64,000 nucleotides of DNA. Origin: Novosphingobium aerophilum. GTDB taxonomy: Bacteria; Pseudomonadota; Alphaproteobacteria; Sphingomonadales; Sphingomonadaceae. The stretch lies in assembly GCF_014230305.1 (NCBI RefSeq), contig NZ_JACLAU010000001.1:248001-312000 (forward strand), written 5' to 3'. Within the stretch, counting starts at the first letter, position 1. The number at the start of each line of letters is the position of its first letter. The notes under the pieces are model-generated. The model was not told the origin of the DNA. It did not search any database and saw only the letters and a list, made by a program, of their open reading frames with translations. A program made the position numbers and the translations under genes. Positions 17,065 to 57,105 of this stretch are shown here, in pieces.

Positions 17065-17128
17065 TACCGACTGGTGGTCGCCAAAGGCTTGTGGCACGCT
17101 TGGCGCCTCGGACTTGGAAGGAGAGACC

Positions 17129-19395: not shown

Positions 19396-19467
19396 TCTCT
19401 CCCTCACGGCGTGTCACGTCGCGCCGACACTGGCGGTTCCCGCCGCGGGGATCAAGCGCAGCGTCCG

Positions 19468-42259: not shown

Positions 42260-42922
42260 CTAAAGTTCGACCACCGAGAGGATGTGGCTGTCCTTGCCGG
42301 GGAAGACATAGTCCAGTTCCAGGTGCATGGACTCGCCCAGTTGGCCGGCGCGGATGAGATCGGTTTCGACGAAGACCTGCACCCCGTTGCTGCCATAGGC
42401 ATAGCGGGTGCAGTCTCCGAACACGGGCGAGGCATCCAGCCGGGCATCCACCTCGGCCTCGCCGCGCCGGGCCCGGTTCAGGCCGATCCTGATCCGGCCC
42501 TGCAGTTCCGGGTCGTTCTGATTGAGGTCGCGCAAGCGAAGCACGATCGCCTCCAGCGCCTCGAGCGAGTCGATCAGCAGGGCGAAGTGGAAACTCGCCT
42601 CGAAATCGGCCGCCATCATGGCGCGATAGCCGGTCACGGCTTCTTCCTCGTGGTCGGTCCCGACGCGTAGCGCAGCGTGGATCGCGGCAATCAGCCGGGC
42701 CTGCGGCTCGGGCAGGGCGGACAGGTAGACGATCCCGTCCCCCCGGGAAAAATGCGCGTCGTCCACCACGAAGCGATAGAAATTGCCGTTGGGCAGGGGC
42801 AGGACCTGGGTTTCGCGCAGCCCCACCTCGGTGAGCAGGCGGGCCGCCACCGGTCCGTCCTCCGCCGTCGCGTAATGGAGCGCCAGGTGGCCCATGCTGA
42901 GCTGTGCGGCGTGGCTGGTCAT
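42260..42922 (-). CDS. Hypothetical protein, 220 aa
   Basis: Not recognised. The start is ATG 42922 behind GGGGACGACG; an upstream in-frame extension overlaps the aldo/keto reductase. It is soluble with no signal peptide. A segment FYRFVVDDAHFSRGDGIVYL and a helical centre (FEASFHFALLIDSLEALEAI, then VLRLRDLNQNDPELQGRIRI) are visible, and it ends LDYVFPGKDSHILSVVEL. The 19-bp spacing after the reductase gene places it in the HsaA-like/reductase operon. A role in the island's catabolism is plausible but unproven. Confidence 0.7.
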   Translation of the reverse strand: MTSHAAQLSMGHLALHYATAEDGPVAARLLTEVGLRETQVLPLPNGNFYRFVVDDAHFSRGDGIVYLSALPEPQARLIAAIHAALRVGTDHEEEAVTGYRAMMAADFEASFHFALLIDSLEALEAIVLRLRDLNQNDPELQGRIRIGLNRARRGEAEVDARLDASPVFGDCTRYAYGSNGVQVFVETDLIRAGQLGESMHLELDYVFPGKDSHILSVVEL

Positions 42923-42941: not shown

Positions 42942-43904
42942 TCAGGCGTCACGCAGCCGGGCCAGTTCCCCGGGCGACAGGACCAGCGTCGCCGCCCTGA
43001 CGCTGGCCTCGATCTGCTCGACGCTCGATCCCCCGAAGATCGGAATGGTCTGATGCGGCTGGCACAACAGGTATGCGAGCACGACATTGTTGATCCCAAC
43101 GCCGTGCTCGTCCGCGATCGCCTGCGCTGCCGCAAACCGCCGCGCATTCACCGGGTTGGCATAGCGGGCTGCCAGCGCCTCGGGGACCTCGCCTGTCGCC
43201 AGCTTGGTGAAGTAGCCGCCGCTCTGCGCCGCATAGGCGATGATCGGCAGGCCTGCTGCATGCAGCGCCTCGTACTCGCCCTCATAGTAATGGACATAGC
43301 CCTGGGCGGCGGCGGCGGCAGGTTCGGGGGCGGCGAGACCCCAGAACGTCTCCGACGCGACGAAGCCCGGCTGGCCGAGCGATGCGGCATAGGCGTTCGC
43401 GGCAGCGATCCGTTCGGCCGCCCAGTTCGACGCCGCAAAGTGGCGGATGCGCCCCGCCTCGCGGTGACCGATCAGCATGTCGATCAGCGGTTCGACCGGC
43501 ATCTCCGGGTTGTCCGCGTGCAGGAAGTACAGATCGATCGTGTCGATCCCGAGGTGGTCGAGGCTCTGGTGCAGGTCCTGCGTCACGTCGTCGGGCGTGC
43601 ACCGGTTGCGATAGTCGCCGGCCCGCAGGTCGAAGAACCCGCCCTTGGTCGCCACGACCACCTCGGACCGCTTGCGGGTCTTGAGCCAGGCGCCGATCGC
43701 CCGCTCGCTCGCTCCGACCGGCGCGTCGGGGATCCAGTCGCCATAGGAGCGGGCCGTGTCGATGAAGTTGCCGCCCAGCGCGACGAAGCCATCCAGGATC
43801 GCGTTCGTCTGCCCCTGGTCGAGCATCCAGCCCAGCATGTTGGTGCCATAGCAGAGCCGGCTGACCGCAAGGTTGGTGTTGGCGAGAGTGGTTTTGCCCA
43901 GCAT
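42942..43904 (-). CDS. Aldo/keto reductase
   Basis: 320 residues from ATG 43904 (AAGGAG lies 11 bp upstream; a TTG at 43913 is possible). The (alpha/beta)8 AKR fold shows the catalytic Asp/Tyr in NFIDTARSYGDWIPD, the Lys in VVATKGGFF and the His in DLYFLHADNPEMP. The C-terminal GGSSVEQIEASV binds NADPH. It reduces aldehydes or ketones, or oxidises alcohols, in the cytosol. It lies between the HsaA-like hydroxylase and the 220-residue unknown protein, so it likely handles a ketone intermediate of the same pathway. Confidence 0.9.
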   Translation of the reverse strand: MLGKTTLANTNLAVSRLCYGTNMLGWMLDQGQTNAILDGFVALGGNFIDTARSYGDWIPDAPVGASERAIGAWLKTRKRSEVVVATKGGFFDLRAGDYRNRCTPDDVTQDLHQSLDHLGIDTIDLYFLHADNPEMPVEPLIDMLIGHREAGRIRHFAASNWAAERIAAANAYAASLGQPGFVASETFWGLAAPEPAAAAAQGYVHYYEGEYEALHAAGLPIIAYAAQSGGYFTKLATGEVPEALAARYANPVNARRFAAAQAIADEHGVGINNVVLAYLLCQPHQTIPIFGGSSVEQIEASVRAATLVLSPGELARLRDA

Positions 43905-43967
43905 GGCGATCAAGGCTCCTTAACTGCGAGGACCAGGGCGCATTGGCCGGGCAGGCGCCCTTGGCGC

Positions 43968-45182
43968 TCAGAGGAAGGTGAAGGTCGGGTCCTGTCCGGT
44001 CAGGCCGCCGATCAGGTCTTGCGTGCGGTTGGCGGGATCGTTGGCGACATGGGCCCGACCGGCATTGAGATCGAGCCAGGGCTGGATGATCGGGCTGGTC
44101 ATGTAGATCGCCCGGCCGCCGAGCAGCTTGACCATGTCGTCGACCAGATCGGCCAGCCGCCGCACCACGCTGGACGAATTGTAGGCATAGTGGGTGCGCT
44201 TGATCATCGGGATCGGCTCACCCCGGTCGGCGTGGCCCATCAGGTCCTCGAAGGTGAGGCGCAGGGTCTGCTCCATCTCGGTCACCTCGGCATGGGCCCG
44301 GGCGATGGCGGCGTGGAGGAAGGGATCGTTCTTTGATGCCTTGCCGGTGTTGGTGGACACCCGGCTTTCGGCAATCTCGAGCGCGGCGGCAATGGCTGCG
44401 CGGGCGCCGCCGAAGGCTGCGGTCGAAACCGAGCGCATGAACACCTGGGCCCAGGGCAGGGTGTACAGCGGCCCGGGATTGGTCTCCTGCCCGGGATTGG
44501 CGCAGAGGAAGCCGTCCACCGCGCGGTGAGTGCGGTGTTCGGGGACGAAGACGTCGTCGACGATGATATCGTGGCTGCCGGTGCCCTGCAGGCCGAACAC
44601 GTGCCAACTGTCGGTATCGATCGCGTAATCCTCCCGCGGCAGCAGGAAGGCCCGCATGTCCGGCGGCTCGCCGGGGCCTGCGGGCGGGACCATGGCCCCC
44701 AGCACGACCCACTGGCAATGAACCGATCCGGTCGAGAAGCCCCAGCGACCCGACAGGCGGAAGCCGCCCTCGACCCGGGTGACCCGCCCGACCGGCTGAT
44801 AGCTCGACGAGACCAGCGTGGCGGTGTCCTCGCCCCAGACCTCGGCCTGGGCCTCCTCGTGGAACAGGGCGATCTCGTAGGGATGGCAGCCGACCACGCC
44901 AAACATCCAGCCGGTCGACATGCATCCTTCGGCCAGGGCCTTCTGCACGTCGTAGAAGACATTGGGGTGCATCTCGTAGCCGCCCCAGCGGCGCGGCTGG
45001 AGGATGCGGAAGAACCCGGCATCGTGCAGCTCGGCGATGGTCTCGGCAGGCACGTCGCGCCCGGCCACGCAGCGTGCGGCGCGTTGCCGCAACGTCGGGA
45101 TCATGGCGCGGGCGCGGGCGACCAGGTCTTGCGGGCTCGGGACGAAGGCGCGCTCAACGGACAAAGAAGCAGACATCACCAT
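43968..45182 (-). CDS. HsaA-like flavin-dependent hydroxylase (acyl-CoA dehydrogenase fold)
   Basis: 404 residues from ATG 45182 behind GGGGGAGGAC. The two-component monooxygenase family (HsaA, HpaH-like group D) is recognisable from TIAELHDAGFFRILQPRRWGG, the STGW-FGVVG block, RVTRVEGGFRLSGRWGFSTGS and FGLQGTGSHDIIVDDVFVPE. The C-terminal half has RAIYMTSPIIQPWLDLNAGR. Such enzymes hydroxylate phenols (HsaA acts on 3-HSA in steroid breakdown) with FMNH2 or FADH2 from a separate reductase. No HsaB-like reductase gene lies in the window. A close paralogue is at 50391-51503. Confidence 0.85.
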   Translation of the reverse strand: MVMSASLSVERAFVPSPQDLVARARAMIPTLRQRAARCVAGRDVPAETIAELHDAGFFRILQPRRWGGYEMHPNVFYDVQKALAEGCMSTGWMFGVVGCHPYEIALFHEEAQAEVWGEDTATLVSSSYQPVGRVTRVEGGFRLSGRWGFSTGSVHCQWVVLGAMVPPAGPGEPPDMRAFLLPREDYAIDTDSWHVFGLQGTGSHDIIVDDVFVPEHRTHRAVDGFLCANPGQETNPGPLYTLPWAQVFMRSVSTAAFGGARAAIAAALEIAESRVSTNTGKASKNDPFLHAAIARAHAEVTEMEQTLRLTFEDLMGHADRGEPIPMIKRTHYAYNSSSVVRRLADLVDDMVKLLGGRAIYMTSPIIQPWLDLNAGRAHVANDPANRTQDLIGGLTGQDPTFTFL

Positions 45183-45381
45183 GCTGGTGTCCTCCCCCGG
45201 GCAGAATCGGGCTTTCCCGGACATTTCTATCACGCGTAAACTATAGCGCCAAAAGGTACGCAATTGCCAATCAAAAACCGCTTATGACGCGAATATGTGA
45301 TGATGTTCGCGGCTTCGGGAAGTCAATGCCATGCGCTGGCGCTGCAACGCATCGGGTCAGGCGGGTTGGACCGGCACCGGT
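45183..45381 (-). promoter_or_regulatory. Promoter region of the HsaA-like operon
   Basis: 199 bp with an AT-rich core (45225-45300). On the minus strand TTGGCA and CTATAG about 18 bp apart near 45240-45275 are candidate -35 and -10 boxes. The BVMO stop lies at the right edge. Confidence 0.35.
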
Positions 45382-47310
45382 TCAGCGATGGAGGATGTAG
45401 GTTCCGTCGGCCGGCGCCCGCGTCTCGTTGAAATAATCGACCAGCCGCCAGGGCCACGAGAGAAAGACCCGGCCTTTCGAGTTGTTGTAGTAGCTGTTGG
45501 CCCGGGGGTGGCTCCAGATCATCTCGGGCATGCGCGCGTCGACCTTGCGGTTCCAGGCGTCGAAGGCGTCCCGGGTGACCTCGAAGGCCTTGGCGTCGGC
45601 GGCGACGGTCCGGTCGAGCGCCTCGATGATCCAGTTGACCTGGCACTCCGAGATCAGGTTCTGCCCGGCGGCGTGATTGGGTGCGCTGTTGGGCCCCACG
45701 GTGTGGAAGTAGTTGGGATAGCCCGGCACGCACATGCCCAGATAGCTGCGCGGATCCTCTTCACCCCATTCCTCGCCAAGGTCGCGGCCGCCGATCCCCC
45801 TGATCGTCAGATCGCCCAGCATTTTCGCGACATTGAAGCCGGTGGCGCAGACGATGACGTCACATTCGAACACCGTGCCGTCCCTGGCCTCGATCCCGTG
45901 CGGCAGGATCCGTGCGATCCCGCTCGTCTCCAACTGGACGTTGTCGCGGCGGAGGGCGTCGAACCAGCCGTTGTCCAGGATGATCCGCTTGGAAAAGATC
46001 GGGAAGTCGGGCGTCAGCTTGGCGATCAGGTCCGGCCGGTCGGCGAACTTCTGGCGCATGTATCCCAGCGCGTACTGGCGGGTCAGCTCGTTGCCTTGGG
46101 ATACGGCCAGGTCATTGCCCTCCCATGCCGGATCCTTGAGCACGTTTGCGAAGAGGCCGTCGGCCTCGGCCCAGAACACCCGGAAGCGGAACCACTGCTT
46201 GAAGGTGGGGATGTGGGCGAGGGCCCACTTCATCCCGTCGGCCACCTCGTGGGCGATCTCGGGGTTGAACAGCACCCAGTGTTTGGTCCGCTGGTAGACC
46301 GTCAGTTGCGCAACCTGCGGCGCGATGGCCCCGACCAGCTGGGCCGAACTGGCACCCGTGCCGATCACCGCGACCCGCTTGCCGGTGATGTCCAGATCGG
46401 TCGGCCAGGCTGCCGTGTGGACGACCGGTCCGGTGAATCCCTCGAGCCCCGGAATGTCCGGGAACTTGAAGCGGTTGACCGGTCCGTGGCCGTTGATCAC
46501 GGCATTGGCCACGATCTCCTCGCGCTGGCCATCCGCGGTCAGCACGGTGACCGTCCAGGTCCCCGTGCCTTCATCGTAGACCAGGGATTCAACCTTGGTG
46601 TTGAACCGCATGTTGCGGCGCAGATCGTACTTGTCCGCCACCTCGAGCAGGTACTGCTGCATGTCGCCGCCCTGCGGGTGGTAATGGTGCCAGTCGGGCC
46701 AGATCTCCCAGCTGAAGCTGTAGAAATGGCTCGATGTGTCGACGCCGACCCCGGGGTAGCGGTTTTCGTACCAGGTGCCGCCGATATCGGCGTTCTTCTC
46801 GATGACGATGTGATCGTAGCCGGCTTCGCGCAGCTTGGTCGCGGCGGCCATGCCGGTCAGGCCGGCCCCGATCACCAGGACCCTGAAGCCCGCGGGCGGG
46901 TGGCTGCGTCCGGGGATCGCCGAGCGGTCGATCCACGGCTTGAAGCCGCATTGGTCGTAGACCAGCGCGATGAATTCATCCTCGACCGGCTCGCCGACTG
47001 TCACGCTCATGATCCGCTGGGCCAGGGTGTCGGGCAGCGGGGTGGACGCCAGGCCTGCGCCAGTGGTCAGCAGGCGCCGCAGCCGCGCCCGCAGCTCGTC
47101 GGCCAGGGCCGGGGGAATGTCGGTCGGCGGGACCGAGAAGGCCGGCCGAATGTGGGGCGCGAAGCGCTCGAGGAAATCGGCATCCTGCGACAGGTGGACA
47201 TAGGCCGCCAGCAGGGTGGGCAGATTGGCCGTCGCCAGCGCTTCCGTCAGTTCGGGCGAGTCCCCGAGCAAGGCGCGGCTGGCGCGCTCGGACATGAGGA
47301 TGGTGGACAT
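45382..47310 (-). CDS. Baeyer-Villiger flavin monooxygenase (HAPMO-like)
   Basis: 642 residues. Two Rossmann motifs are clear: GAGLTGMAAA near 146-155 for FAD and GTGASSAQ near 316-323 for NADPH. Between them lies the BVMO fingerprint FTGPVVHTAAWP (FxGxxxHTxxWP) near 291-302. The roughly 140-residue N-terminal extension (starting MSTILMSERASRAL) resembles that of 4-hydroxyacetophenone monooxygenase-type BVMOs. It inserts oxygen next to a carbonyl to make an ester or lactone, a typical ring-opening step for cyclic or aryl ketones. It is divergent from the epimerase-type gene at 47556. Confidence 0.92.
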   Translation of the reverse strand: MSTILMSERASRALLGDSPELTEALATANLPTLLAAYVHLSQDADFLERFAPHIRPAFSVPPTDIPPALADELRARLRRLLTTGAGLASTPLPDTLAQRIMSVTVGEPVEDEFIALVYDQCGFKPWIDRSAIPGRSHPPAGFRVLVIGAGLTGMAAATKLREAGYDHIVIEKNADIGGTWYENRYPGVGVDTSSHFYSFSWEIWPDWHHYHPQGGDMQQYLLEVADKYDLRRNMRFNTKVESLVYDEGTGTWTVTVLTADGQREEIVANAVINGHGPVNRFKFPDIPGLEGFTGPVVHTAAWPTDLDITGKRVAVIGTGASSAQLVGAIAPQVAQLTVYQRTKHWVLFNPEIAHEVADGMKWALAHIPTFKQWFRFRVFWAEADGLFANVLKDPAWEGNDLAVSQGNELTRQYALGYMRQKFADRPDLIAKLTPDFPIFSKRIILDNGWFDALRRDNVQLETSGIARILPHGIEARDGTVFECDVIVCATGFNVAKMLGDLTIRGIGGRDLGEEWGEEDPRSYLGMCVPGYPNYFHTVGPNSAPNHAAGQNLISECQVNWIIEALDRTVAADAKAFEVTRDAFDAWNRKVDARMPEMIWSHPRANSYYNNSKGRVFLSWPWRLVDYFNETRAPADGTYILHR

Positions 47311-47341
47311 GAGGCCGATTTCTCCCGTCAGCCGAGTCTTA

Positions 47342-47361
47342 TTGTGAGTATGTACTTACAA
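47342..47361. promoter_or_regulatory. TetR-type palindrome between BVMO and epimerase genes
   Basis: TTGTGAGTATGTACTTACAA is a 20-bp inverted repeat with 8 of 9 arm matches around a TG centre. It sits 31 bp upstream of the BVMO start. GAGT/ACTTA half-sites resemble those at 52550-52559 and 52680-52697 near the TetR gene. Confidence 0.5.
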
Positions 47362-47555
47362 CAGGGAATGCGGATTGCAAGCTGCGGCTGAAGCGGCGCC
47401 GGCAGGCCATCCAAGCGTCCGATCGGTGCCACGCCCGCGGTCTGGTGGTGATTCCCCGGCGAGGAAGCGTTTCCGTTCGCCGGGAAGCTGGCCTATCCCA
47501 CTCCAGGCGCCGCGACACCGGTCGCGACGGCACATTTGGCGAAGGCGCAGTTGGC

Positions 47556-48980
47556 ATGTCGGGTTGGCAGAAGATCGTCTTCCTCACCGGGGCCACCGGC
47601 AATATGGGCCGGGTCACGCTGGCCGAGCTGCTGGCGCGGTCGGACCGTTTCCGGGTCCGCGCCCTGGTCAGGCCGGAAGACAGGAACCATCCTGTGGTCC
47701 GGCGCTTCACCGGCCGGGCCGCGCTGGAATGGGTCTGGGGAGACCTGACGCGCTACGAGGACGTTCTCGCCGGCGTCACCGGGGCGGACCAGGTGCTGCA
47801 CATCGGGGGCATGGTCTCGCCCCTGGCCGACCGGTTTCCCGAGCTGACGATGCAGGTCAACGTGGGCGGCGCCCGCAACATCGTCGATGCGATCCGGCGG
47901 TCGGGGCAGGCAGACCATACGGCGCTGGTCTACATCGGTACGGTCGCCCAGACCGGCCACCGCAATCCCCCGGTGCACTGGGGCCGCACCGGTGATCCGA
48001 TCAAGATCAGCCGGTTCGATCACTATGCCGTCAGCAAGACCGAGGCCGAGGCCATCGTCGCGCAATCCGGGCTGACGCGGTGGGTTTCGCTGCGCCAGAC
48101 CGGCATTCTCCACCCCGACATGTGGAAGATCCACGATCCGATCGTCTTCCATAATCCCCACAACGGGGTGTTCGAATGGATCACGGTGGGGGACTCGGCG
48201 CGGCTGGCCGTCAACACCTGCGAAGACGCGGTCCCGGAGGCCTTCTGGCGCGGCTTCTACAACATCGGCGGCGGTGAGCGGATGCGGCTGGTCAACCACC
48301 AGTTCTCGCGCCATCTGGCCGCGGCCTTGGGCACCGACATGCAGGCCAGCACCCGCCCCAACTGGACCGGGACGCGCAACTTCCATGGCCAGTGGTACGC
48401 CGATTCCGATCGGCTGGAGCACCTGGTGCCGTTCCGCAGCGAGACGATGGACGACTTCACCCGCCAGTTGGCCGCGGGGGTGCCGGGGATCGTCCGGCTG
48501 CTGGCGCGGATGTTTCCCGGCGCCGGGCGGCGGCGGATGGAGAAGCTGGCGCGGGGGCCGGGCGGCACCTTGCACTGGATCGCACACGACGACCGGGCCC
48601 GCATCGACGCCTACTTCGGTTCACGCGCGGCCTGGGATGCGCTTCCGGCCGAGTGGGGCGACTTTGTCTATCGCGAGCCGTCTCGTGAGGTGTGCTGTCT
48701 GGACCACGGCCACGATGCGGACAAGCCGATCGAGGAATGCAGCACGGCCGATCTCAAGGCGGCAGCGGCCTTCCGCGGTGGCCGTTTCGCCGGCGACGCC
48801 TTCGAGCCCGATGCGCCGGCGCGCTTCGCCTGTGCCCTGGGTCACGACTTCAGCATGACGCCGCGGCTCTACCTGAAGGGCGGGCACTGGTGCCCGACCT
48901 GCATGACCAACCCCGACAGCTACGACGCCAATCGGGCGCGCAACCCGTTTTTCGCCCAGGTCTGGCCGGACACGGATTGA
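47556..48980 (+). CDS. NAD-dependent epimerase/dehydratase (extended SDR) with Cys-rich C-terminal tail
   Basis: 474 residues from ATG 47556. Residues 1-330 form an extended SDR: nucleotide motif FLTGATGNMGR at 9-19, and the catalytic Tyr157 and Lys161 in DHYAVSKTEAE. The remaining 140 residues are not SDR. They contain CCLDHGHDADKPIEEC and CALGHDFSM, then GGHWCPTCMTNP, several Cys and His as in a zinc- or iron-binding module. Probable role: 3beta-HSD-like oxidation or isomerisation in the island's pathway. The tail's function is unknown. It is divergent from the BVMO and converges on the putative Fe(II) oxygenase (16-bp gap). Confidence 0.8.
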   Translation: MSGWQKIVFLTGATGNMGRVTLAELLARSDRFRVRALVRPEDRNHPVVRRFTGRAALEWVWGDLTRYEDVLAGVTGADQVLHIGGMVSPLADRFPELTMQVNVGGARNIVDAIRRSGQADHTALVYIGTVAQTGHRNPPVHWGRTGDPIKISRFDHYAVSKTEAEAIVAQSGLTRWVSLRQTGILHPDMWKIHDPIVFHNPHNGVFEWITVGDSARLAVNTCEDAVPEAFWRGFYNIGGGERMRLVNHQFSRHLAAALGTDMQASTRPNWTGTRNFHGQWYADSDRLEHLVPFRSETMDDFTRQLAAGVPGIVRLLARMFPGAGRRRMEKLARGPGGTLHWIAHDDRARIDAYFGSRAAWDALPAEWGDFVYREPSREVCCLDHGHDADKPIEECSTADLKAAAAFRGGRFAGDAFEPDAPARFACALGHDFSMTPRLYLKGGHWCPTCMTNPDSYDANRARNPFFAQVWPDTD

Positions 48981-48996
48981 GCCCTGCCGCCGTCCG

Positions 48997-50079
48997 TCAG
49001 GCGGCCATGCCGAACGGCGGGTCGACCGGCGCTTCGTCCGGATACTCGGCCGGTCCGCCAAAGTCGTAGGCCGCGTTGAGCGCGCGGATGAACACCGGAT
49101 CGCCCAGCGGATCGCTCGGGGTTTCGATCGCGATCCCGCGCGAGCGAACGTCCTTGATCAAGGTGTCGATCGCCTGCTCGTGGGTCAGGTTGTCGCTGCC
49201 GTCCATATTTGTCTTCAGCTCGTCATAGTCGCTGAAGACCTCGGCCGACCAGTGGACCAGGAAGCGTAGCTCGTCGGTGTGGTAGCGTTCGATCTCGGTA
49301 TCGCCGGTCCGAACCACCCACCCGTCGCGATCGTCCGGATCGCCCGCGAAGACGCTGTCGAATGCCAGTCCCGCCGGGCGGCGACGCTCGCGGGGGCCGT
49401 TGGCCTCGCCGCGGTGGACCAGCATCTCGTTCTGGACCACCACCGCGCGGTTGTAGATCGGCGACTGCACCCGCGCGGGCTTGTTCAGCGGGCCTTCCGG
49501 CCAGTAGGTGAAGCCACTCTCCGGATCGTGGCTGAACCAGGTGATGACCTGGGCCATCTTGATCAGATAGTCCTGGAACAGGCCCGACCGGCCCATGATC
49601 GAACACAGCCAGGTCGGGGAGTTTTCGTACCGGATTCCCCGGAAGCTGGGCGAATCCAGGTGGCCCGGGTCGGTGTTGGCGCAGGGACCGTTGACGTTGA
49701 ACAGCATCATCTGCGGCTTGGCATAGGCCGCGCCCCAGTACGACTTGGCGTGATTGAGGAAGGCCTCGTTGTAGAACACCTCGTGCAGCTCGGGGTAGAG
49801 CGGCGTGGAATAGTTGCCGAAGTAGCCCCGGAAGGTCGGGGTCATGAACATGTCCAGGGTGGGCGTGAAGCCTTCGGGGAAACCTCCGGCGAAGGTCGCC
49901 AGCAGCGATTCGGGCGTGGGGAAATGCTGGGCGATGATCAGCTTCCACGGTCCCTGGTCATGGACCACGTCGAGCATCAGCCGCTTCTGCTCCTCGGTGA
50001 ACGGATTGGCGATCTCGCGCGGCGGGGCCACCGGCTTGAGGATGTCGGAAAGGTACTGCCTGCGGGCCTCGTCGAGCAT
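48997..50079 (-). CDS. Putative Fe(II)-dependent oxygenase (phytanoyl-CoA dioxygenase-like)
   Basis: 360 residues. An HxD-type dyad occurs in DPGHLDSPSFRG (His about 139, Asp about 141), with a later His in QNEMLVHRGEANGPRERRR about 70 residues downstream followed by conserved-looking Arg residues. That spacing and order fit a 2-oxoglutarate/Fe(II) facial triad with an Arg for 2-oxoglutarate. I did not recognise a named family, and overall similarity to phytanoyl-CoA dioxygenases is by pattern only. It could hydroxylate a terpenoid-like substrate. It shares a divergent promoter with the second HsaA-like gene. Confidence 0.6.
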   Translation of the reverse strand: MLDEARRQYLSDILKPVAPPREIANPFTEEQKRLMLDVVHDQGPWKLIIAQHFPTPESLLATFAGGFPEGFTPTLDMFMTPTFRGYFGNYSTPLYPELHEVFYNEAFLNHAKSYWGAAYAKPQMMLFNVNGPCANTDPGHLDSPSFRGIRYENSPTWLCSIMGRSGLFQDYLIKMAQVITWFSHDPESGFTYWPEGPLNKPARVQSPIYNRAVVVQNEMLVHRGEANGPRERRRPAGLAFDSVFAGDPDDRDGWVVRTGDTEIERYHTDELRFLVHWSAEVFSDYDELKTNMDGSDNLTHEQAIDTLIKDVRSRGIAIETPSDPLGDPVFIRALNAAYDFGGPAEYPDEAPVDPPFGMAA

Positions 50080-50390
50080 CGCGGTCTCCTGTCGATCGGA
50101 TCGGTGCCAACCGGGTTATGACGGGTTAGTTATAGATCGATAACTTCTTGCGCAAGTCGGTTTGGCGAAACGGGATTTGCGCGCCCGGCAGTGGCGTTCC
50201 CGGAGCCGATCCCGGCGGCCGGTGGCCGCGCCGGATCCCCGCCACGCCCCCGGCGCTGCCCCTGTTCCTTGGTGCAGTCGGGGAAAGAGTGGTAATTTTA
50301 TACGCGCAACACTTGTTTTGAGCGCATATAGGCGGCGGACGCGAAGGTCCGTCCTTCACGTGGTACGCAATGTAAGGTTGGAGATTGTCG
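50080..50390. promoter_or_regulatory. Divergent promoter region with two inverted repeats
   Basis: 311 bp between the putative Fe(II) oxygenase (minus) and the second HsaA-like gene (plus). AGTTAT-agatcg-ATAACT (50128-50145) has perfect 6-base arms and lies 49 bp from the oxygenase start. A second imperfect repeat, TATACGCGC with GCGCATATA, spans 50299-50330, on the HsaA side. Both are plausible regulator sites; which protein binds is unknown. Confidence 0.5.
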
Positions 50391-51503
50391 ATGCCGGTGT
50401 CCGCTTCCACGCTCGAGCTGATTGGCGCCAAGGCCGCGCAAGGGCGCAAGGATCGTCGGATCGCGTCCGAAGTGGTCGAGGCGCTGAAGGCCGACGGCTT
50501 CTTCCGCCACTTCACGCCCCGGCGCTATGGCGGCACCGAGGGGCGCCCGCAGGACTTCTTCCGCGATCAGATCGCCATCGGCCAGCGTGACATGAGCACC
50601 GCCTGGGCGCTCGGGATCGTCGGCGTGCACAATTTCCAGATCGCCATGATGGACCATCGCACCCAGGCCGAGATCTTCGCCGAGGGGCCCGACGCCCTCA
50701 TCTCCAGCTCGTACAACCCGTTCGGCGCCCGGGCCGAGAAGGTCGACGGCGGAGTCATGCTGTCGGGTCGCTGGGGCTGGTCGAGCGGCTGCCTGCATTG
50801 CAACTGGGTCCTGCTCGGCGGGGTCGTGCCCGAAGAGGGATACCGGACCTTCCTGGTGCCCGCCGCCGATTACCGGATCGAGGACACCTGGTACACGATG
50901 GGCCTGCAGGCCACCGGTTCGAACGACATCGTGATCGACACGCCGGTGTTCGTGCCCGATCACCGCACCCACCGGCAGATGGACGGGTTCAACGGCGTCC
51001 ATTTCCAGGAACCGGGCGTCTACGACATGCCCTGGGCCCAGGTCTTCATCCGCGTGGTCAACACCGCCGCGATCGGCGCGGTGCGCCATGCGATCGAACT
51101 GATGCGGGACCGGGTGGGACTGGGCACGACCGACCAGACCAAGGCGCTTGGCGATCCTGACGTGCTGGACCGGATCGCGCGGGCCGCCAACCTGGCCGAC
51201 GAGGCCGAGGCGGTGATGCTGCGGGCCTTCGACGAGATGGAGGCCAAGGCGTGGAAGCCCAGCCTGCTCGACCGGGCGCGCTACCGCTACCAGGCCAGCC
51301 TGGTCGGCGATCGCTGCATCGAGGCGATGGACCTGATCATGGATATCGGCGGCGGTCGCTCGGTCTACACCGGCAACGCGCTGCAGGATATCTGGCACGA
51401 TGTGCGGATGGCGCGGGCCCATGTGGCGAACAACCCGGCCGGCTTCGCCCGCAACTATGCCAACATGCTGATGGGCGCCGAGAACGCCGACCTGTTCATC
51501 TAG
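50391..51503 (+). CDS. HsaA-like flavin-dependent hydroxylase, second copy
   Basis: 370 residues from ATG 50391 (GGAG lies 9 bp upstream). It is the same family as the protein at 43968-45182: EVVEALKADGFFRHFTPRRY, ISSSYNPFGARAEKVDGGVM, LSGRWGWSSGCLHCNWVLLG and MGLQATGSNDIVIDTPVFVP line up block for block. It is about 34 residues shorter at the ends. The active-site region is intact. Two copies suggest two hydroxylations or two related substrates in the island. As with the first copy, no partner flavin reductase is visible nearby. Confidence 0.85.
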   Translation: MPVSASTLELIGAKAAQGRKDRRIASEVVEALKADGFFRHFTPRRYGGTEGRPQDFFRDQIAIGQRDMSTAWALGIVGVHNFQIAMMDHRTQAEIFAEGPDALISSSYNPFGARAEKVDGGVMLSGRWGWSSGCLHCNWVLLGGVVPEEGYRTFLVPAADYRIEDTWYTMGLQATGSNDIVIDTPVFVPDHRTHRQMDGFNGVHFQEPGVYDMPWAQVFIRVVNTAAIGAVRHAIELMRDRVGLGTTDQTKALGDPDVLDRIARAANLADEAEAVMLRAFDEMEAKAWKPSLLDRARYRYQASLVGDRCIEAMDLIMDIGGGRSVYTGNALQDIWHDVRMARAHVANNPAGFARNYANMLMGAENADLFI

Positions 51504-51856: not shown

Positions 51857-52546
51857 TCAGGCCGCCGTCTGGCCGCTGGCGGGCGTCGAATCCGCCTCGA
51901 GATGCCGCGCGATCACCGCTTCGCTGATGCCCATTCCGCGGCAGCAGAACCAGGTCGCCTGCCGGGCGAGTTCCCCGTCCGTCACGCCATAGGGGCGGGC
52001 TCCGGCGGGCAGTGCGCAGATCGCGGTCATCATCGTCCCGACATGCTCGGCAAACATCGACAGGGTGTTCACGTCCAGCGGCTCGCCAGCGATCTCCCCG
52101 GCGGCCCGGCCCTGTTCGTGTGCCGCCAGCACGCTCTGCTGGTTGCGGCGCAGCGATCGGCGATAAATCAGGGCGGCATAGCTGCCGTCGCCGGCCAGGC
52201 TGGCCAGCATCATCCGGTTCGGATCGGGCGATCCGGTGCGCTCCGTCCCCGGCACGCAACTGCGAAAGAAGGCATGCAGCGCCCGGACGATGCCCCCGGC
52301 GCCCGCCGACTTGATCCCGACGTCCTCCCAGTTGCGGTCCTGTTCAACGAACACCTGCCGCAGCACCGCACGGTAAAGCGCCAGCTTCGACGGGAAATGG
52401 CGATAGACCAGCGCTTCGGACACGTTGGCCTCGCGGGCGATCTGCAGCGTCTTCGCCCCATCGTAGCCCTGCTGCGAGAACACGCGGCGCGCGGCGGCGA
52501 TGATCTGCGAGCGGCGTTCGCTGCCAGGCATGCGCTTCTTGGCCAT
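51857..52546 (-). CDS. TetR-family transcriptional regulator
   Basis: 229 residues from ATG 52546. The N-terminal domain is typical TetR: RRSQIIAAARRVFSQQGYDG, KTLQIAREANVSEALVYRHF and PSKLALYRAVLRQVF. The C-terminal domain is ligand-binding and not assignable to a subgroup. It is divergent from the HSL-type hydrolase and SDR genes. Ten-base TAAGTGAGTG sequences lie immediately upstream of its own start (52550-52559, minus strand) and at 52680-52689 (plus strand), so it probably represses itself and the hydrolase pair. Confidence 0.9.
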   Translation of the reverse strand: MAKKRMPGSERRSQIIAAARRVFSQQGYDGAKTLQIAREANVSEALVYRHFPSKLALYRAVLRQVFVEQDRNWEDVGIKSAGAGGIVRALHAFFRSCVPGTERTGSPDPNRMMLASLAGDGSYAALIYRRSLRRNQQSVLAAHEQGRAAGEIAGEPLDVNTLSMFAEHVGTMMTAICALPAGARPYGVTDGELARQATWFCCRGMGISEAVIARHLEADSTPASGQTAA

Positions 52547-52683
52547 GGGCACTCACTTAAGTTCACCGTCCGCGCAGTCAACCGACGGTTTTGCGCGATC
52601 CCGGCGGTCCCTGCGGGAGAGGGTTTCACTTACCAGGCGGTCCGGTGCAGCCGATTGACTCGGCTCCGGGGCCCATGCATAAG

Positions 52684-52818: not shown

Positions 52819-53751
52819 GTGCCGATCGATCCGCAGATTGCCGCAATGCTGGATGCCATGCCGGAATGGCCGGGTGTCCGCCACGTTCCTCTCGCCATGC
52901 TGCGCCAGTCGGTGCGGGACAGTTCGATCGGTATTCCCCCTGCGGCCGATGCGGTCGTGGCCGCAGTGCGCGATGCGGTGATCCCCGGGCCCGGCGGCGA
53001 TCTGCCGATCCGGATCTACACGCCCGAGGGGCAGGGGCCGTTTCCCGTCGTCGTCTACATGCACGGCGGAGGCTATGTGGTGGGCGATCTCGACACCCAG
53101 GACATGATCGCCCGGGCGCTGTGTGCCTGGAGCGCGGCCGTGCTGGTCTCGGTCGATTACCGGCTCGCCCCGGAACACAAGTTCCCGGCCGGAGTGGATG
53201 ATAGCGTAGCGGCGCTGCGGTGGGTGGCCGGGAACGCGGCCGCCATCGGAGGCGATGCCAGCCGCCTGGCCCTGGCGGGTGACAGCGCCGGTGCGAACAT
53301 GGCCTGCGCGGCAGCCCTGGTCGCGCGCGACGAGGGCGGGCCGGCGGTTCGCGCCGTGGTCAACATCTATGGCTCGTGCAACTACCCCGGCACGGCGACA
53401 CCCTCCGCGATCGCGTTCGCCGATGGACCGATCCTGCGCGCGGACGATGTGGCCTGGTTCTGGGAACAGTACCTGGAGCACCCCTCGCAACAGGACGATC
53501 CGCGAGCCTCGCCCCTGCGCGCGGCGAGCCATGCCGGACTGCCACCCCATTTCGTCGGCACGGCCGAGTGCGACCCCTCGCGGGATGATGCGGAGGACTT
53601 CGCCCGCAAGCTGATCGCGGCCGGTGTGGAAACCCGCCTGCAGCGCTACCCCGGCATGGTCCATGGCTTTGCCTCGTGGGTCGGGTTCCTGCCGGGGGCC
53701 CGCGCGGTCTTGCAGGATGCCGCCGCGTTCCTGAAAACCCATTTGCACTGA
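52819..53751 (+). CDS. Hormone-sensitive-lipase-family alpha/beta hydrolase
   Basis: 310 residues, GTG start at 52819 behind GAGGAGCAGG. The HSL (class IV) signature HGGG is at 82-85. The nucleophile is Ser156 in GDSAGAN, with an acid in AECDPSRDDAE near 252 and the catalytic His282 in MVHGF. No signal peptide, so cytosolic. It hydrolyses esters or lactones, a suitable partner for the Baeyer-Villiger monooxygenase, whose product is an ester or lactone. It is probably co-transcribed with the SDR at 53826 and controlled by the adjacent TetR. Confidence 0.92.
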   Translation: MPIDPQIAAMLDAMPEWPGVRHVPLAMLRQSVRDSSIGIPPAADAVVAAVRDAVIPGPGGDLPIRIYTPEGQGPFPVVVYMHGGGYVVGDLDTQDMIARALCAWSAAVLVSVDYRLAPEHKFPAGVDDSVAALRWVAGNAAAIGGDASRLALAGDSAGANMACAAALVARDEGGPAVRAVVNIYGSCNYPGTATPSAIAFADGPILRADDVAWFWEQYLEHPSQQDDPRASPLRAASHAGLPPHFVGTAECDPSRDDAEDFARKLIAAGVETRLQRYPGMVHGFASWVGFLPGARAVLQDAAAFLKTHLH

Positions 53752-53825: not shown

Positions 53826-54692
53826 ATGGCGCAAGACGCGGAAGTGTTCGGGGGCGGGGTTGCCGTCATCACGGGGGCGGGCTCGGGCATCGGGGCCGGG
53901 CTCGCGCGGCGGGCCGGTGCGCTCGGCATGACCGTGGTGGTCGCCGACGTGAACCAGGCCGCCGCCCAGGCCACGGTCGACCAGATCGTGGCGGCCGGAG
54001 GCCAGGCCGAGGCGGTGCGGGTCGATGTCTCACATCCCGAGGAACTCGATCGGCTGGCCGACCACGTGTTCGCGGCCCATGGCGAGGTCCGCCTGCTGAT
54101 CAACAACGCCGGGATCGAGACCGTGGGCTACACCTGGGAGGTGCCCACCGCGCGTTGGGAAGCCACCCTGAACATCAACCTGCACGGCGTGATCCACGGC
54201 GTCCGGGCCTTCATGCCGCGCCTGATCGCCAGCGGGAAAGAGGCCTGGATCGGCAACCTCTCGTCGGTCGGCGCCTTCGGCATGATGCCCGCGCAGACCG
54301 CCTATATCGTCACCAAGCATGCGGTGCAGGCCTTCTCGGAATGCCTCTACCTGGAAGCGCAACTGAAGGCGCCGCAGATCCACGTCTCGGCGATCATCCC
54401 GGGCATGCTGAAGACCAACATCTTCAACGCCGGTGCCGGTGATGACGTCGCGGGCCATGAACCCGAAAGCGCAAGGGCGCATCGCCAGCGGATGTTCGAG
54501 ATGATGCGGGACTACGGCATGGACCTCGACGAAGGCTGCCGGCTGTTCCTCGAGCAGATGGCGGAAAACCGGTTCTGGGTGCACAGCCAGCCCGACATGA
54601 GCCGGGAGGTGCTGGACGGGCGCATCGCGTTTTTCCAGGCGCAGCAGGCTCCGGTCCTGCCCGAGTCGGTCCGCCACATCATCGCCGAGTGA
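53826..54692 (+). CDS. Short-chain dehydrogenase/reductase (classical SDR)
   Basis: 288 residues, start behind GGAGGATAAGCGAGG. GAGSGIG is at 17-23, NNAG near 93-96, and the catalytic set is Ser (NLSSVGAFG) and Tyr160-Lys164 (AYIVTKHA). It oxidises or reduces a hydroxyl/keto group using NAD(P). The C-terminal extension (about 225-288) is rich in Met, Glu and Arg, longer than the usual 250-residue form. Its 74-bp gap from the hydrolase gene suggests co-transcription. The substrate is unknown. Confidence 0.9.
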   Translation: MAQDAEVFGGGVAVITGAGSGIGAGLARRAGALGMTVVVADVNQAAAQATVDQIVAAGGQAEAVRVDVSHPEELDRLADHVFAAHGEVRLLINNAGIETVGYTWEVPTARWEATLNINLHGVIHGVRAFMPRLIASGKEAWIGNLSSVGAFGMMPAQTAYIVTKHAVQAFSECLYLEAQLKAPQIHVSAIIPGMLKTNIFNAGAGDDVAGHEPESARAHRQRMFEMMRDYGMDLDEGCRLFLEQMAENRFWVHSQPDMSREVLDGRIAFFQAQQAPVLPESVRHIIAE

Positions 54693-54735: not shown

Positions 54736-55632
54736 TCAGGTGCGTGGCGGCTCGATCCCGGCATTGGCGCAGGCGAAGTCCAGCAGCGCCGAATAGTCCC
54801 GGCCCGCGAGGTCGGTCGCCCGCGCCGCGCCATAGACGGCATAGGCGGCCGACCCCACCGGCAGCCCCATCCTGAGCTCGCCCGCCGCGGTCATCGCAAG
54901 GGTCATGTCCTTGTGCGCCAAATCGATCGTGAAGCCGGGCGCGGTGTCGTCTTTCAGCACCTTGTTGACCATCAGGGTGTGGAGCTGGCCGTTCTGCGCC
55001 GTGGTCGCGCCGGTCACCTGCAGGATCGTGCCGATGTCGAGCCCTAGTTTGGTGCCGAGCGCCACCGCCTCGGCGCTGACCTGCGCCACGGTCAGGAGGA
55101 GGAAGTTGTTGACCAGCTTCATGCGGCTGCCCATGCCGCGCCCGCCGCAGCGGTGGATGTCCTTGCCCATGGCCTGCAGCAGGGGTTCGACCCGGGCGAA
55201 GTCCGCGTCTGTCGCGCCGACCATGAACAGCGATTCGCCCCGTTCGGCATGCAGCACCAGGCGGCCGATCGGGCTGTCGACGAAGGCGACATCCCGGGCC
55301 GCGCAGGCGGCGGCGACCTTGTCGGTGCCCCTGGCGTCGATCGTCGACATCTCCAGCAGCAGCGCGCCCGCCGCCATGTGCGCCAGCGCGCCATCGGGTC
55401 CGAGGACGACCGCCTCGACATGCGGAGTGGCGGGCAGGCAGGTGATGACGACATCGGCGCGCTCGGCCGCTTCAGCGATTGATCCGGCGCGGCTGCCACC
55501 CAGCGCCACGATGGCGTCGGCACGGTCGGGCGCGATGTCATACGCGCAGACCGGGAAGCCCTTGCGCTGCAGGTTCCGGGCGAGGGGCAGGCCCATCGCG
55601 CCCAGTCCGATGAAGCCGATCTTGGTGGTCAT
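54736..55632 (-). CDS. 3-hydroxyisobutyrate dehydrogenase-family enzyme
   Basis: 298 residues with the beta-hydroxyacid dehydrogenase layout. The Rossmann motif GFIGLGAMGLPLARNL is at 6-21. The substrate-site blocks are FVDSPIGRLVLHAERGESLF and the catalytic Lys in GMGSRMKLVNNFLL (near 171). It oxidises a 3-hydroxy acid with NAD(P), such as 3-hydroxyisobutyrate, tartronate semialdehyde or a pathway intermediate. The gene sits 121 bp downstream of the CoA-transferase gene on the same strand. GAGGATC upstream of ATG 55632 is a good ribosome site. Confidence 0.9.
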   Translation of the reverse strand: MTTKIGFIGLGAMGLPLARNLQRKGFPVCAYDIAPDRADAIVALGGSRAGSIAEAAERADVVITCLPATPHVEAVVLGPDGALAHMAAGALLLEMSTIDARGTDKVAAACAARDVAFVDSPIGRLVLHAERGESLFMVGATDADFARVEPLLQAMGKDIHRCGGRGMGSRMKLVNNFLLLTVAQVSAEAVALGTKLGLDIGTILQVTGATTAQNGQLHTLMVNKVLKDDTAPGFTIDLAHKDMTLAMTAAGELRMGLPVGSAAYAVYGAARATDLAGRDYSALLDFACANAGIEPPRT

Positions 55633-55753: not shown

Positions 55754-57007
55754 TCATGACAATGTCTCCGCGATGATTCCCGCCGTGAGCAGCCGCTCGA
55801 GCTCATGCTTAGTGAGTCCCAACTCATCTTCCAAGACCGCCGCGGTGTCTTCACCCGATCGCGGCGGGGCATGGCGATAATCGGCCGGCGTGGCCGACAG
55901 CCTGGCCGGAAAGCCGAGGAACTTGACGGGAGTCCCGTCGCGCCGGGCGATCTCCTGGACCAGACCGCGCGCCCGGATCTGGGGATGATCGAGCGCTTCG
56001 GGAATCTCGTTGACCTTGCCGCCGGGCAGGCCGGCCTGTTCCATCGCACCGATCAGGTCCTCGGCCTTCCACCGGGCAATCGCCGCGTTCATCTCGGGGA
56101 TCAGCTCCGCTCGGTTGACGCTGCGATCGGCACTGGTCGAGAAGCGCGGATCGTCGGCCAGCTCGGGCCGCTCGATCAGGCGGGTGAAGGTGCGGAACTG
56201 GCGATCGTTGCCCAGCGCGACCAGCACCTCGCCATCGGCGCAGCGGAAGTCCTGGTAGGGGACGGTGTTGGGATGGGCATTGCCCAGCCGGCGCGGCGCC
56301 ATGCCCCCGTTCAACCAGTTGGAGGCCTGGTTGGTCAGCAGCGAAACCTGCGTGTCGAGCAGGGCCAGATCGATGTGCTGGCCTTCGCCGGTCTGGTCAC
56401 GATGGCGCAGCGCGGCCAGGATGGAGATCGTGGCATAGAGCCCGGTGAAGAGGTCGCTGACCGGCAGGCCCACCTTCATCGGCCCGCCTCCGGGGACGCC
56501 ATCGGGCAGGCCGGTGACGCTCATCAGACCGCTCAGGCCCTGGATCAGGAAGTCATAGCCGCCAACGTCCTTGTAGGGGCCGTCCTGACCGAACCCGGTG
56601 ATCGAGCAATAGACCAGATCGGGCTTGAGAGCCCGCAGCGACGGGTAGTCCAGCCCGTACCGGGCGAGGCCACCGACCCGGAAGTTCTCGACCACCACGT
56701 CCGCATTCAAGACCATCCGCCGGATCAGCGCGGCTCCCTCTGGAGCGGAGAGGTTGATCGCGACCGACCGCTTGTTGCGGTTCGCACAGAGATAATAGGC
56801 GGAATCGCGCGACCCGTCGTCCAGGAAGGGCGGTCCCCAGCGGCGGGTGTCGTCGCCCTGTCCGGGCTGCTCCACCTTGATCACCTCGGCCCCTAGATCG
56901 CCCAGCACCTGGGTGCACCAGGGTCCGGCCAGCACCCGCGACAGGTCAAGCACGCGAAGCCCGACGAGCGGACCGGTCGGGCTCGGGGGAGCGGCAGGTT
57001 CGGTCAT
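55754..57007 (-). CDS. Class III CoA-transferase (CaiB/BaiF family)
   Basis: 417 residues. The family opening LRVLDLSRVLAGPWCTQVLG and the LGAEVIKVEQPGQGDDTR block are present. The catalytic Asp of class III enzymes lies in LALLDTQVSLLTNQ (about Asp218). It moves CoA from a donor acyl-CoA to a carboxylic acid without forming a free acid anhydride intermediate, activating a substrate for beta-oxidation. It is divergent from a LysR regulator that probably controls it. Neighbouring acyl-CoA dehydrogenases fit that role. The acceptor acid is unknown. Confidence 0.93.
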   Translation of the reverse strand: MTEPAAPPSPTGPLVGLRVLDLSRVLAGPWCTQVLGDLGAEVIKVEQPGQGDDTRRWGPPFLDDGSRDSAYYLCANRNKRSVAINLSAPEGAALIRRMVLNADVVVENFRVGGLARYGLDYPSLRALKPDLVYCSITGFGQDGPYKDVGGYDFLIQGLSGLMSVTGLPDGVPGGGPMKVGLPVSDLFTGLYATISILAALRHRDQTGEGQHIDLALLDTQVSLLTNQASNWLNGGMAPRRLGNAHPNTVPYQDFRCADGEVLVALGNDRQFRTFTRLIERPELADDPRFSTSADRSVNRAELIPEMNAAIARWKAEDLIGAMEQAGLPGGKVNEIPEALDHPQIRARGLVQEIARRDGTPVKFLGFPARLSATPADYRHAPPRSGEDTAAVLEDELGLTKHELERLLTAGIIAETLS

Positions 57008-57064: not shown

Positions 57065-57105
57065 CTAATATTAGTTGTCCGTTTTGTGATAGACGATCGG
57101 TATCA
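57065..57105. promoter_or_regulatory. LysR-type operator region between CoA-transferase and LysR
   Basis: CTAATATTAG (57065-57074) is a perfect palindrome. TGATA-gacgatcgg-TATCA (57087-57105) is an inverted repeat with a T-N11-A LysR box, and it overlaps the LysR start codon at 57105. Divergent arrangement with CoA-transferase makes these likely regulator sites. Confidence 0.55.

Follow-up and report, generated by a model that had tools for sequence, protein, structure and literature searches.

The 64,000-nucleotide stretch of Novosphingobium aerophilum DNA analysed here, referred to as the window, comprises bases 248001-312000 of a contig (C31) of 484,048 bases. It carries a block in which two genes for HsaA-type flavin monooxygenases enclose genes for a type I Baeyer-Villiger monooxygenase (BVMO), an extended short-chain dehydrogenase/reductase (SDR) and a protein that matches nothing in Pfam or NCBIfam. 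This gene content and order, as given in a preliminary description of the DNA, hold, and each gene is backed by its codon-position GC content. Comparison with related genomes makes it very likely that the block belongs to the gene set with which sphingomonads degrade steroids aerobically (by the 9,10-seco route) and has been displaced from the rest of it. The block and the two genes next to it are as follows.

42260-42922, minus strand: orfan A, 220 amino acids, without a Pfam or NCBIfam match, with a predicted vicinal-oxygen-chelate (VOC) fold.
42942-43913, minus strand: aldo/keto reductase (AKR; PF00248, 172 bits), whose orthologue adjoins orfan A in pNL2 of N. aromaticivorans and in Novosphingobium sp. 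ES2-1.
43968-45182, minus strand: HsaA1, oxygenase component of an HsaA-type flavin monooxygenase; the start codon is inferred, and the longest ORF starts at 45263.
45382-47310, minus strand: type I BVMO, 642 amino acids, with an N-terminal extension of about 140 residues.
47556-48980, plus strand: extended SDR, with an N-terminal domain like 3-beta-hydroxysteroid dehydrogenases/epimerases and an extra C-terminal part.
48997-50079, minus strand: orfan B, 360 amino acids, without a Pfam, NCBIfam or PDB sequence match.
50385-51503, plus strand: HsaA2, a second HsaA-type monooxygenase, 71% identical to a third one (HsaA3) encoded outside the window.

Orthologues of orfan A, the AKR, HsaA1, the BVMO, orfan B and HsaA2, with 64-90% identity, lie inside one 41 kb stretch of pNL2, a plasmid of N. 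aromaticivorans DSM 12444. Because these six orthologues cluster so closely there, the grouping of the block is not a matter of chance. Their locus tags include SARO_RS19285 for orfan A, SARO_RS19325 for HsaA1, SARO_RS19335 for orfan B, SARO_RS19385 for the BVMO and SARO_RS19390 for the HsaA2-type protein. HsaA1 scores 362.8 bits and HsaA2 scores 270.5 bits against the NCBIfam equivalog model for HsaA (NF045629), whose cut-off of 450 bits is passed by no match in the genome, and therefore we term both proteins HsaA-type rather than equivalogs. Among solved structures, HsaA1 is closest to those of HsaA, giving 269.9 bits for 2rfq (3-HSA hydroxylase) and 251.7 bits for 3afe, which we take to be HsaA of Mycobacterium tuberculosis, versus 130.4 bits for C2 hydroxyphenylacetate hydroxylase. 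The preliminary description spoke of two copies of HsaA. Two HsaA-like genes are indeed present, but at 40% identity they represent two sub-clades rather than two copies.

The same contig holds a 9,10-seco steroid cluster that lacks hsaA. It is located at C31:209057-218122, which is 30-39 kb to the left of the window, and consists of the divergent arms hsaF-hsaG-hsaE-hsaD and SDR-hsaC-ipdA-ipdB. The first arm (C31:209057-214387, minus strand) codes for an FAD dehydrogenase, a 4-hydroxy-2-oxovalerate aldolase (HsaF type), an acylating acetaldehyde dehydrogenase (HsaG type), a 2-oxopent-4-enoate hydratase relative (HsaE type) and a C-C hydrolase (HsaD) whose best model is HsaD with 160.0 bits. 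The second arm codes for an SDR, an extradiol dioxygenase (HsaC relative, C31:215500-216411) and two CoA-transferase-type proteins related to IpdA and IpdB, which share 83-89% identity with their counterparts in Novosphingobium sp. ES2-1. The HsaC, HsaD, HsaE-G, IpdA and IpdB genes at C31:209-218 kb were recognised by orthology and gene order. C31 also carries the two other enzymes expected for the aerobic 9,10-seco pathway, namely a KshA-type Rieske oxygenase (C31:27323-28555; KshA_C PF19298, 185.7 bits) and a KSTD-like dehydrogenase (C31:186638-188329; 544.5 bits, under the cut-off of 789).

The preliminary description had stressed that HsaB, HsaC and HsaD are missing, which is correct for the window. 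None of the genome's three matches to the flavin reductase family PF01613 falls within it, whole-genome searches place the relatives of HsaC and IpdA outside it, and the HsaD relative of the contig is likewise outside (the window's other alpha/beta-hydrolases, at 17114-18013 and 52819-53751, were scanned with Pfam only). However, the absence is a property of the window and not of the contig, where HsaC and HsaD are encoded at 209-218 kb and a flavin reductase at 244 kb.

Evidence that HsaA1 belongs to this cluster comes from its orthologues. In five relatives, the HsaA1 orthologue is located exactly between hsaD and the SDR gene, giving the order HsaD-HsaA1 on one arm and SDR-HsaC-IpdA-IpdB on the divergent arm, and HsaE, HsaG and HsaF come after HsaD in four of the five (not in genome G024). 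In the C31 cluster, HsaD and the SDR are separated by 333 bases without HsaA. Seven genomes have HsaA1 and IpdA on one contig, and in five of these HsaA1 is 1,002-1,022 bases away from HsaC and 1.95-1.98 kb away from IpdA. The exceptions to the tight HsaA1-HsaC spacing are the genome studied here, with 75,560 bases, and genome G028, with 161,000. Matches to HsaA1 of at least 74% occur in 8 of 61 genomes searched (our own included), and all eight have an IpdA relative of at least 79%, which is partial in G001. One genome of 80% completeness (G018) has IpdA and lacks an HsaA1 match at this threshold.

The gene is also next to HsaD in pNL2, where HsaD, HsaE, HsaG and HsaF come straight after it, in G028, where it is located between HsaD and a gene of the HsaA2/HsaA3 type, and in Nitrospirillum amazonense. 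In the latter species, relatives of IpdB, IpdA, HsaC, orfan B, a ferredoxin, a KSTD-like protein, KshA, the extended SDR, HsaA1 and HsaD all lie within 19 kb, with the orthologue of the extended SDR (47556-48980) between KshA and HsaA1. Such a position of orthologues in the steroid cluster, together with HsaC, HsaD and IpdA/B, applies to HsaA1 only and not to HsaA2. Orthology and gene order thus indicate that HsaA1 is displaced from the cluster here, unlike in pNL2, where it stays beside HsaD.

Synteny with the hsa/ipd cluster backs the earlier suggestion that the substrate is a steroid-like compound, and searching relatives for the block, as had been proposed, supports the steroid link through the 41 kb stretch of pNL2 and the five relatives with HsaA1 inside the cluster. 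The same searches argue against the undescribed route without HsaB, HsaC and HsaD that had been envisaged, since a steroid cluster is present on the same contig. Such a route would form a pathway of its own, acting on a cyclic ketone or terpenoid that is not a steroid, in which the two HsaA-type hydroxylases and the BVMO act independently of the hsa/ipd cluster. Several points noted below would suit it, but HsaA1 is syntenic with hsaC, hsaD and ipdAB, and Nitrospirillum carries orfan B, the extended SDR and HsaA1 in one steroid cluster. On these grounds we reject a steroid-independent route, which we regard as improbable.

According to the preliminary description, finding HsaB, HsaC and HsaD close outside the window as part of a standard steroid cluster would count against a separate route. 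HsaA1 is about 75 kb away from HsaC-G and IpdA/B, which are found 30 kb beyond the edge of the window, and whether this counts as close is arguable. We consider that this is largely the situation found despite the 75 kb, because the same HsaA sits inside that cluster in five relatives.

The third HsaA-like gene, HsaA3, is located just left of the window (C31:244701-245813). HsaA2 and HsaA3 form a sub-clade that is only about 40% identical to HsaA1 and could take another substrate, which is one point in favour of a separate pathway. A PF01613 flavin reductase gene (C31:244112-244627) adjoins HsaA3. Genomes G003 and G004 have a flavin reductase of this family between HsaE and HsaD, and none is present at that place in our genome. 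In Sphingobium sp. Chol11, for which PMC8399759 lists HsaB as absent, Nov2c347 lies between HsaE and HsaD and is named beside 'absent' in the HsaB row. The region C31:238838-245813 as a whole encodes a second BVMO, an old-yellow-enzyme relative (identified by eye), the flavin reductase and HsaA3.

The window BVMO carries both type I fingerprints in the form printed in one section of PMC9836352, which are FxGxxxHxxxW[P/D] at residue 292 and [A/G]GxWxxxx[F/Y]P[G/M]xxxD at residue 177. It is 32% identical to the second BVMO (BVMO2, C31:238838-240325), and BVMO2 is in turn 80% identical to a pNL2 protein that is likely Saro_3708. A passage of PMC12239570 names Saro_3708 as the pNL2 homologue of the progesterone BVMO (EGO55_13845) in the pdc cluster of Caenibius (Novosphingobium) tardaugens. 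Judging from gene numbering and the distance from the LLM gene, Saro_3708 is most likely SARO_RS19410, whose orthologue here is BVMO2. We therefore rejected the idea that the window BVMO is the published progesterone BVMO, as the counterpart of that enzyme is most likely BVMO2, outside the window. The two are alike in that each is a type I BVMO on a replicon of a steroid-degrading sphingomonad, as that passage describes the C. tardaugens enzyme, but the window BVMO differs from the likely local counterpart of the progesterone enzyme in its N-terminal extension and its low identity. This distance from BVMO2 is a further point that would fit a separate pathway. An anthraquinone model was likewise rejected, because the main BVMO in the relevant part of PMC9836352 is luciferase-like (type II); this comparison concerns the main enzyme, and the second one there is of type I.

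Neither orfan A nor orfan B has a family match in Pfam or NCBIfam at an E-value of 0.01, and a PDB sequence search with orfan B gave nothing up to E = 10. H140 and D142 (an HxD motif), H222 and R272 of orfan B are invariant in 120 of 120 aligned rows (112 distinct); only translations of more than 200 residues were aligned, and 8 rows repeat the last 250 residues of another row. The structure model has a moderate predicted local distance difference test score (pLDDT) of 70.1, with one model well ahead of the other four, and at this level of confidence it displays a double-stranded beta-helix. Its top matches with Foldseek and VIA-align are 2-oxoglutarate (2OG) oxygenases (FtmOx1, OkaE, PHD2 and SnoN), including SnoN with a Z score of 13.0 and a root-mean-square deviation (rmsd) of 2.9 over 175 residues, and nearly all of the 50 matches listed are 2OG oxygenases. 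Orfan B therefore resembles these four enzymes in its predicted fold and its HxD...H motif, but it differs in being absent from Pfam and NCBIfam and in its steroid-cluster context. Its identity to 2OG oxygenases is at most 12% among one set of 50 matches listed and at most 16% in the VIA-align set. The motif and the predicted fold bear out the earlier description of this protein as a putative Fe(II) oxygenase, and the model suggests that it is very probably an Fe(II)/2OG oxygenase. In the literature covered, which is incomplete and gives no proof of absence, we recognised no 2OG oxygenase of bacterial steroid degradation matching orfan B or orfan A.

The neighbourhood of orfan B relatives brings in several genes that lie beyond HsaA2 in the window.

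51857-52552, minus strand: TetR-family regulator.
52819-53751, plus strand: esterase-like alpha/beta-hydrolase (PF07859); a relative is near orfan B in mycobacteria.
53826-54692, plus strand: SDR, with a relative near orfan B in mycobacteria.
54736-55632, minus strand: 3-hydroxyisobutyrate-dehydrogenase-like protein.
55754-57007, minus strand: class III CoA-transferase; an orthologue is at most 20 kb from orfan B in ES2-1 and TomMM7A.
57105-58007, plus strand: LysR regulator.
58101-59249, plus strand: acyl-CoA dehydrogenase subunit; the pair is kept near orfan B in several relatives.
59272-60243, plus strand: second acyl-CoA dehydrogenase subunit of the pair.

We compared the loci of the best 80 of 233 confirmed candidate relatives of orfan B. 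Of these, 58 are mycobacterial, and the other 22 come from sphingomonads, Haliea-type bacteria, Nitrospirillum and others (the split follows record names, and the flanks are of unequal length). A BVMO of at least 45% is present in the flanks of 10 of the 22 non-mycobacterial loci versus 0 of the 58 mycobacterial ones. The mycobacterial loci have a relative of the SDR (53826-54692) nearby in 56 of 58 cases and a relative of the esterase in 55 of 58, and one of them has a KSTD-like flavoprotein about 5 kb away, as judged by eye and from a general FAD domain only. Orfan B relatives, widespread in mycobacteria, are rare in the class to which our genome belongs (11 of 385 genomes, our own included, with the other ten distant), and in Sphingomonadaceae and Nitrospirillum they are found in or near steroid genes. 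For example, a KshA-type oxygenase gene is located 0.6 kb downstream of orfan B in Chol11.

Both orfans are present in Novosphingobium sp. ES2-1, which we take to be an oestradiol degrader, and in Sphingobium sp. TomMM7A. A plasmid of Sphingobium RC1, a strain that is described as degrading steroid saponins in a statement of PMC10653915, carries an orfan B relative with 45% identity. The different known substrates of ES2-1 and RC1 are a last point that a separate pathway could accommodate.

Genome G003 has three orfan B paralogues on one contig, with 67, 48 and 42% identity. The most distant of them is 5.4 kb away from a relative of KSTD (80% identical to ours), with ferredoxin-like and P450-like genes, identified by eye, in between. 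An orfan B relative in genome G491 (contig C3, 396137-396729) is broken by several stops, and intact copies are found on the same contig.

The structure model of orfan A has a pLDDT of 92.3 and contains the paired beta-alpha-beta-beta-beta arrangement of VOC proteins, which are also its top structural matches (Z up to 9.8, rmsd 3.4 over 124 residues). H113 and E203 do not vary among 25 aligned rows and H13 hardly does, and this H-H-E pattern is presumably that of the VOC metal site. Orfan A is thus similar to FosX, GloA2, glyoxalase I and L-DOPA dioxygenase in its predicted fold and in the conserved first His, second His and Glu, but it differs from them in being a single 220-residue protein without a Pfam match. 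The protein may be either a dioxygenase or an isomerase.

Co-occurrence was assessed in 195 genomes of the genus, of which 48 have an HsaC relative (at least 49%). HsaC accompanies orfan A in 23 of 25 genomes (Fisher p 1.5e-14, relatedness ignored) and orfan B in 16 of 17 (p 2.9e-10, relatedness again ignored), and the sole orfan B genome without HsaC is 71% complete. One weak match to orfan A (G527; 34% over 70 residues), two to orfan B (G547 and G562; 29-40%) and HsaC matches below 49% were dropped before counting, and with the weak rows retained the fractions are 23 of 26 for orfan A and 16 of 19 for orfan B. By sequence, then, both orfans co-occur with hsaC, and this tracking also speaks against a pathway separate from the steroid genes.

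A further link among the hsa/ipd genes of relatives is a 20-bp element, GATACGCAAATCGTCAATTG. Of 27 loci scanned, 10 have it with 0-4 substitutions, each a single time, and always before HsaA1 or SDR-HsaC. Sites at this promoter include L177 11713, L179 7420, L129 21751 and L058 18688, among others, and in some loci the element is also beside another divergent gene. G028, in which the arms are separated, has one copy per arm, and Nitrospirillum has the element before HsaA1 with 4 substitutions. In the whole of C31, the sole site with at most 4 substitutions is located before SDR-HsaC; a 200 kb sample of the contig contains none. Two shorter matches occur in the window.

45255-45263, plus strand: 9-mer GGTACGCAA, 72 nucleotides before the inferred HsaA1 start, oriented as the hsaA/SDR-hsaC element of relatives.
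50362-50370, plus strand: 9-mer GGTACGCAA, before HsaA2.

The 9-mer occurs three times on C31, before SDR-HsaC, HsaA1 and HsaA2. Base composition by itself would give 2.7 copies, so the information lies in where they are and not in how many there are. Moreover, the search was not unbiased, since two of the three matches, spotted by eye, had prompted it. The copy before HsaA2 may be due to chance. The stretch before HsaA1 could at best be a strongly degenerate version of the 20-bp element, which the scans fail to recover there, and we retain only the claim of a shared 9-mer.

Several observations weigh against reading the block as a displaced part of the steroid set. Scans for GATACGCAAATCGTCAATTG that allowed up to 6 substitutions or 5 edits gave no site before the window's HsaA1; only the 9-mer is shared there, and the best fit to the 20-bp element requires 6 edits. 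Nor was the element found before the SDR-HsaC arm in Nitrospirillum. The relatives of HsaA1 (362.8 of 450 bits), HsaC (217.3 of 450) and HsaD (160 of 400) miss the curated NCBIfam cut-offs, so the substrate is not certified by them, and the HsaC relative fits the model for a biphenyl-diol dioxygenase better (TIGR03213, 247.0 bits, also below its cut-off). Orfan A is absent from 25 of the 48 genomes with HsaC and orfan B from 32, and hence neither is universal to the pathway. In addition, the p values given for co-occurrence take no account of relatedness among the genomes.

The failure to recover the promoter element might also mean that the block is a remnant, in which HsaA1 and its neighbours, once moved by a rearrangement, have lost their expression or become dispensable and HsaA2 and HsaA3 have taken over. 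The Trb-type transfer region that separates the steroid cluster from the block (944-4551 and just left of the window) and a nearby TonB receptor gene that is split over two frames are in keeping with such a history. However, HsaA1 is intact and 83-88% identical to its orthologues in G028, G007, G003 and pNL2, its GC content at third codon positions (0.86) is like that of neighbouring genes, and G028 has a gene of the HsaA2 type beside an intact HsaA1. A remnant is thus very unlikely.

Our preferred reading, a displaced part of the steroid set, can be cast as a series of steps in which the enzyme families are recognised from sequence and we infer all reactions and substrates. HsaA1 would most likely hydroxylate the aromatic A-ring of a 9,10-seco steroid (3-HSA to 3,4-DHSA), with its flavin reduced by an enzyme whose gene lies elsewhere. 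HsaC, HsaD and HsaE-G, from their genes 75 kb away, would then cleave and degrade the ring, and IpdA and IpdB would continue on the C and D rings. More tentatively, and as a guess from the gene neighbourhood, orfan B, the BVMO, the SDRs, the esterase-like hydrolase and the acyl-CoA dehydrogenase pair could oxidise a steroid side chain or ring ketone, with subsequent ester cleavage and beta-oxidation.

The chances seem to us evenly balanced that orfan B stands for a so far unnamed family of Fe(II)/2OG-dependent steroid oxygenases present in sphingomonads, Haliea-type gammaproteobacteria, Nitrospirillum and many mycobacteria. Such an enzyme might act with the N-terminally extended BVMO in proteobacteria or with the esterase and SDR in mycobacteria to carry out side-chain or ring oxidation, and orfan A might be a second unnamed metalloenzyme of the same set.

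The genes on C31 resemble the steroid degradation (SD; tes/hsa) clusters of C. tardaugens and Chol11 in having an HsaA/TesA2-type oxygenase, HsaC/D/E/F/G and IpdA/B, and in the location of kstD and kshA outside the cluster. They differ in that hsaA is displaced by 75 kb and lies beside a BVMO and two unnamed families. A section of PMC6895838 reports that kstD, kshA and hsd of C. tardaugens are outside the cluster, and that this species has no TesA1 (HsaB) homologue, with reduced flavin perhaps supplied by unspecific reductases. Together with the entry for Chol11, this shows that sphingomonads whose HsaB is missing or far away have been described before. In 2016, PMC4810484 mentioned testosterone/cholate clusters located on plasmids of two Novosphingobium species, and a 2025 statement has it that steroid growth of N. 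aromaticivorans DSM 12444 was not assessed (PMC12239570). What is new here is that orfans A and B represent two families that Pfam and NCBIfam do not name and that go with steroid clusters, and that the locus provides a clean case of a displaced hsaA. The seemingly missing HsaC and HsaD are present, which serves as a reminder that sphingomonad steroid genes can be scattered, and the 20-bp element found in relatives offers a handle on the regulation of hsa/ipd genes.

Among the other features of the region, Trb-type conjugation genes (TrbL, TrbE, TrbI and a secretion ATPase) occupy positions 944-4551 of the window and 18038-19988 of the adjoining locus L027 (together C31:246-252.6 kb). The part of the window from 20889 to 42254 is of a carbohydrate type, with TonB receptors, GH3, an MGH1-like glycosidase, a tryptophan-halogenase-like protein, MFS and LacI, and is probably unrelated to the steroid block. 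It includes the TonB-dependent receptor gene split over two frames (35151-37556, plug domain, and 37028-38146, barrel end, PF00593, 92 bits; plus strand), which reflects either a frameshift or a sequencing error. No relative of the pNL2 RepA was found among the predicted proteins of C31. Relatives of the pNL2 ParA and ParB proteins, with 41-47% identity, are encoded at C31:51488-54154, and based on these genes and its length of 484 kb the contig may be a large plasmid.

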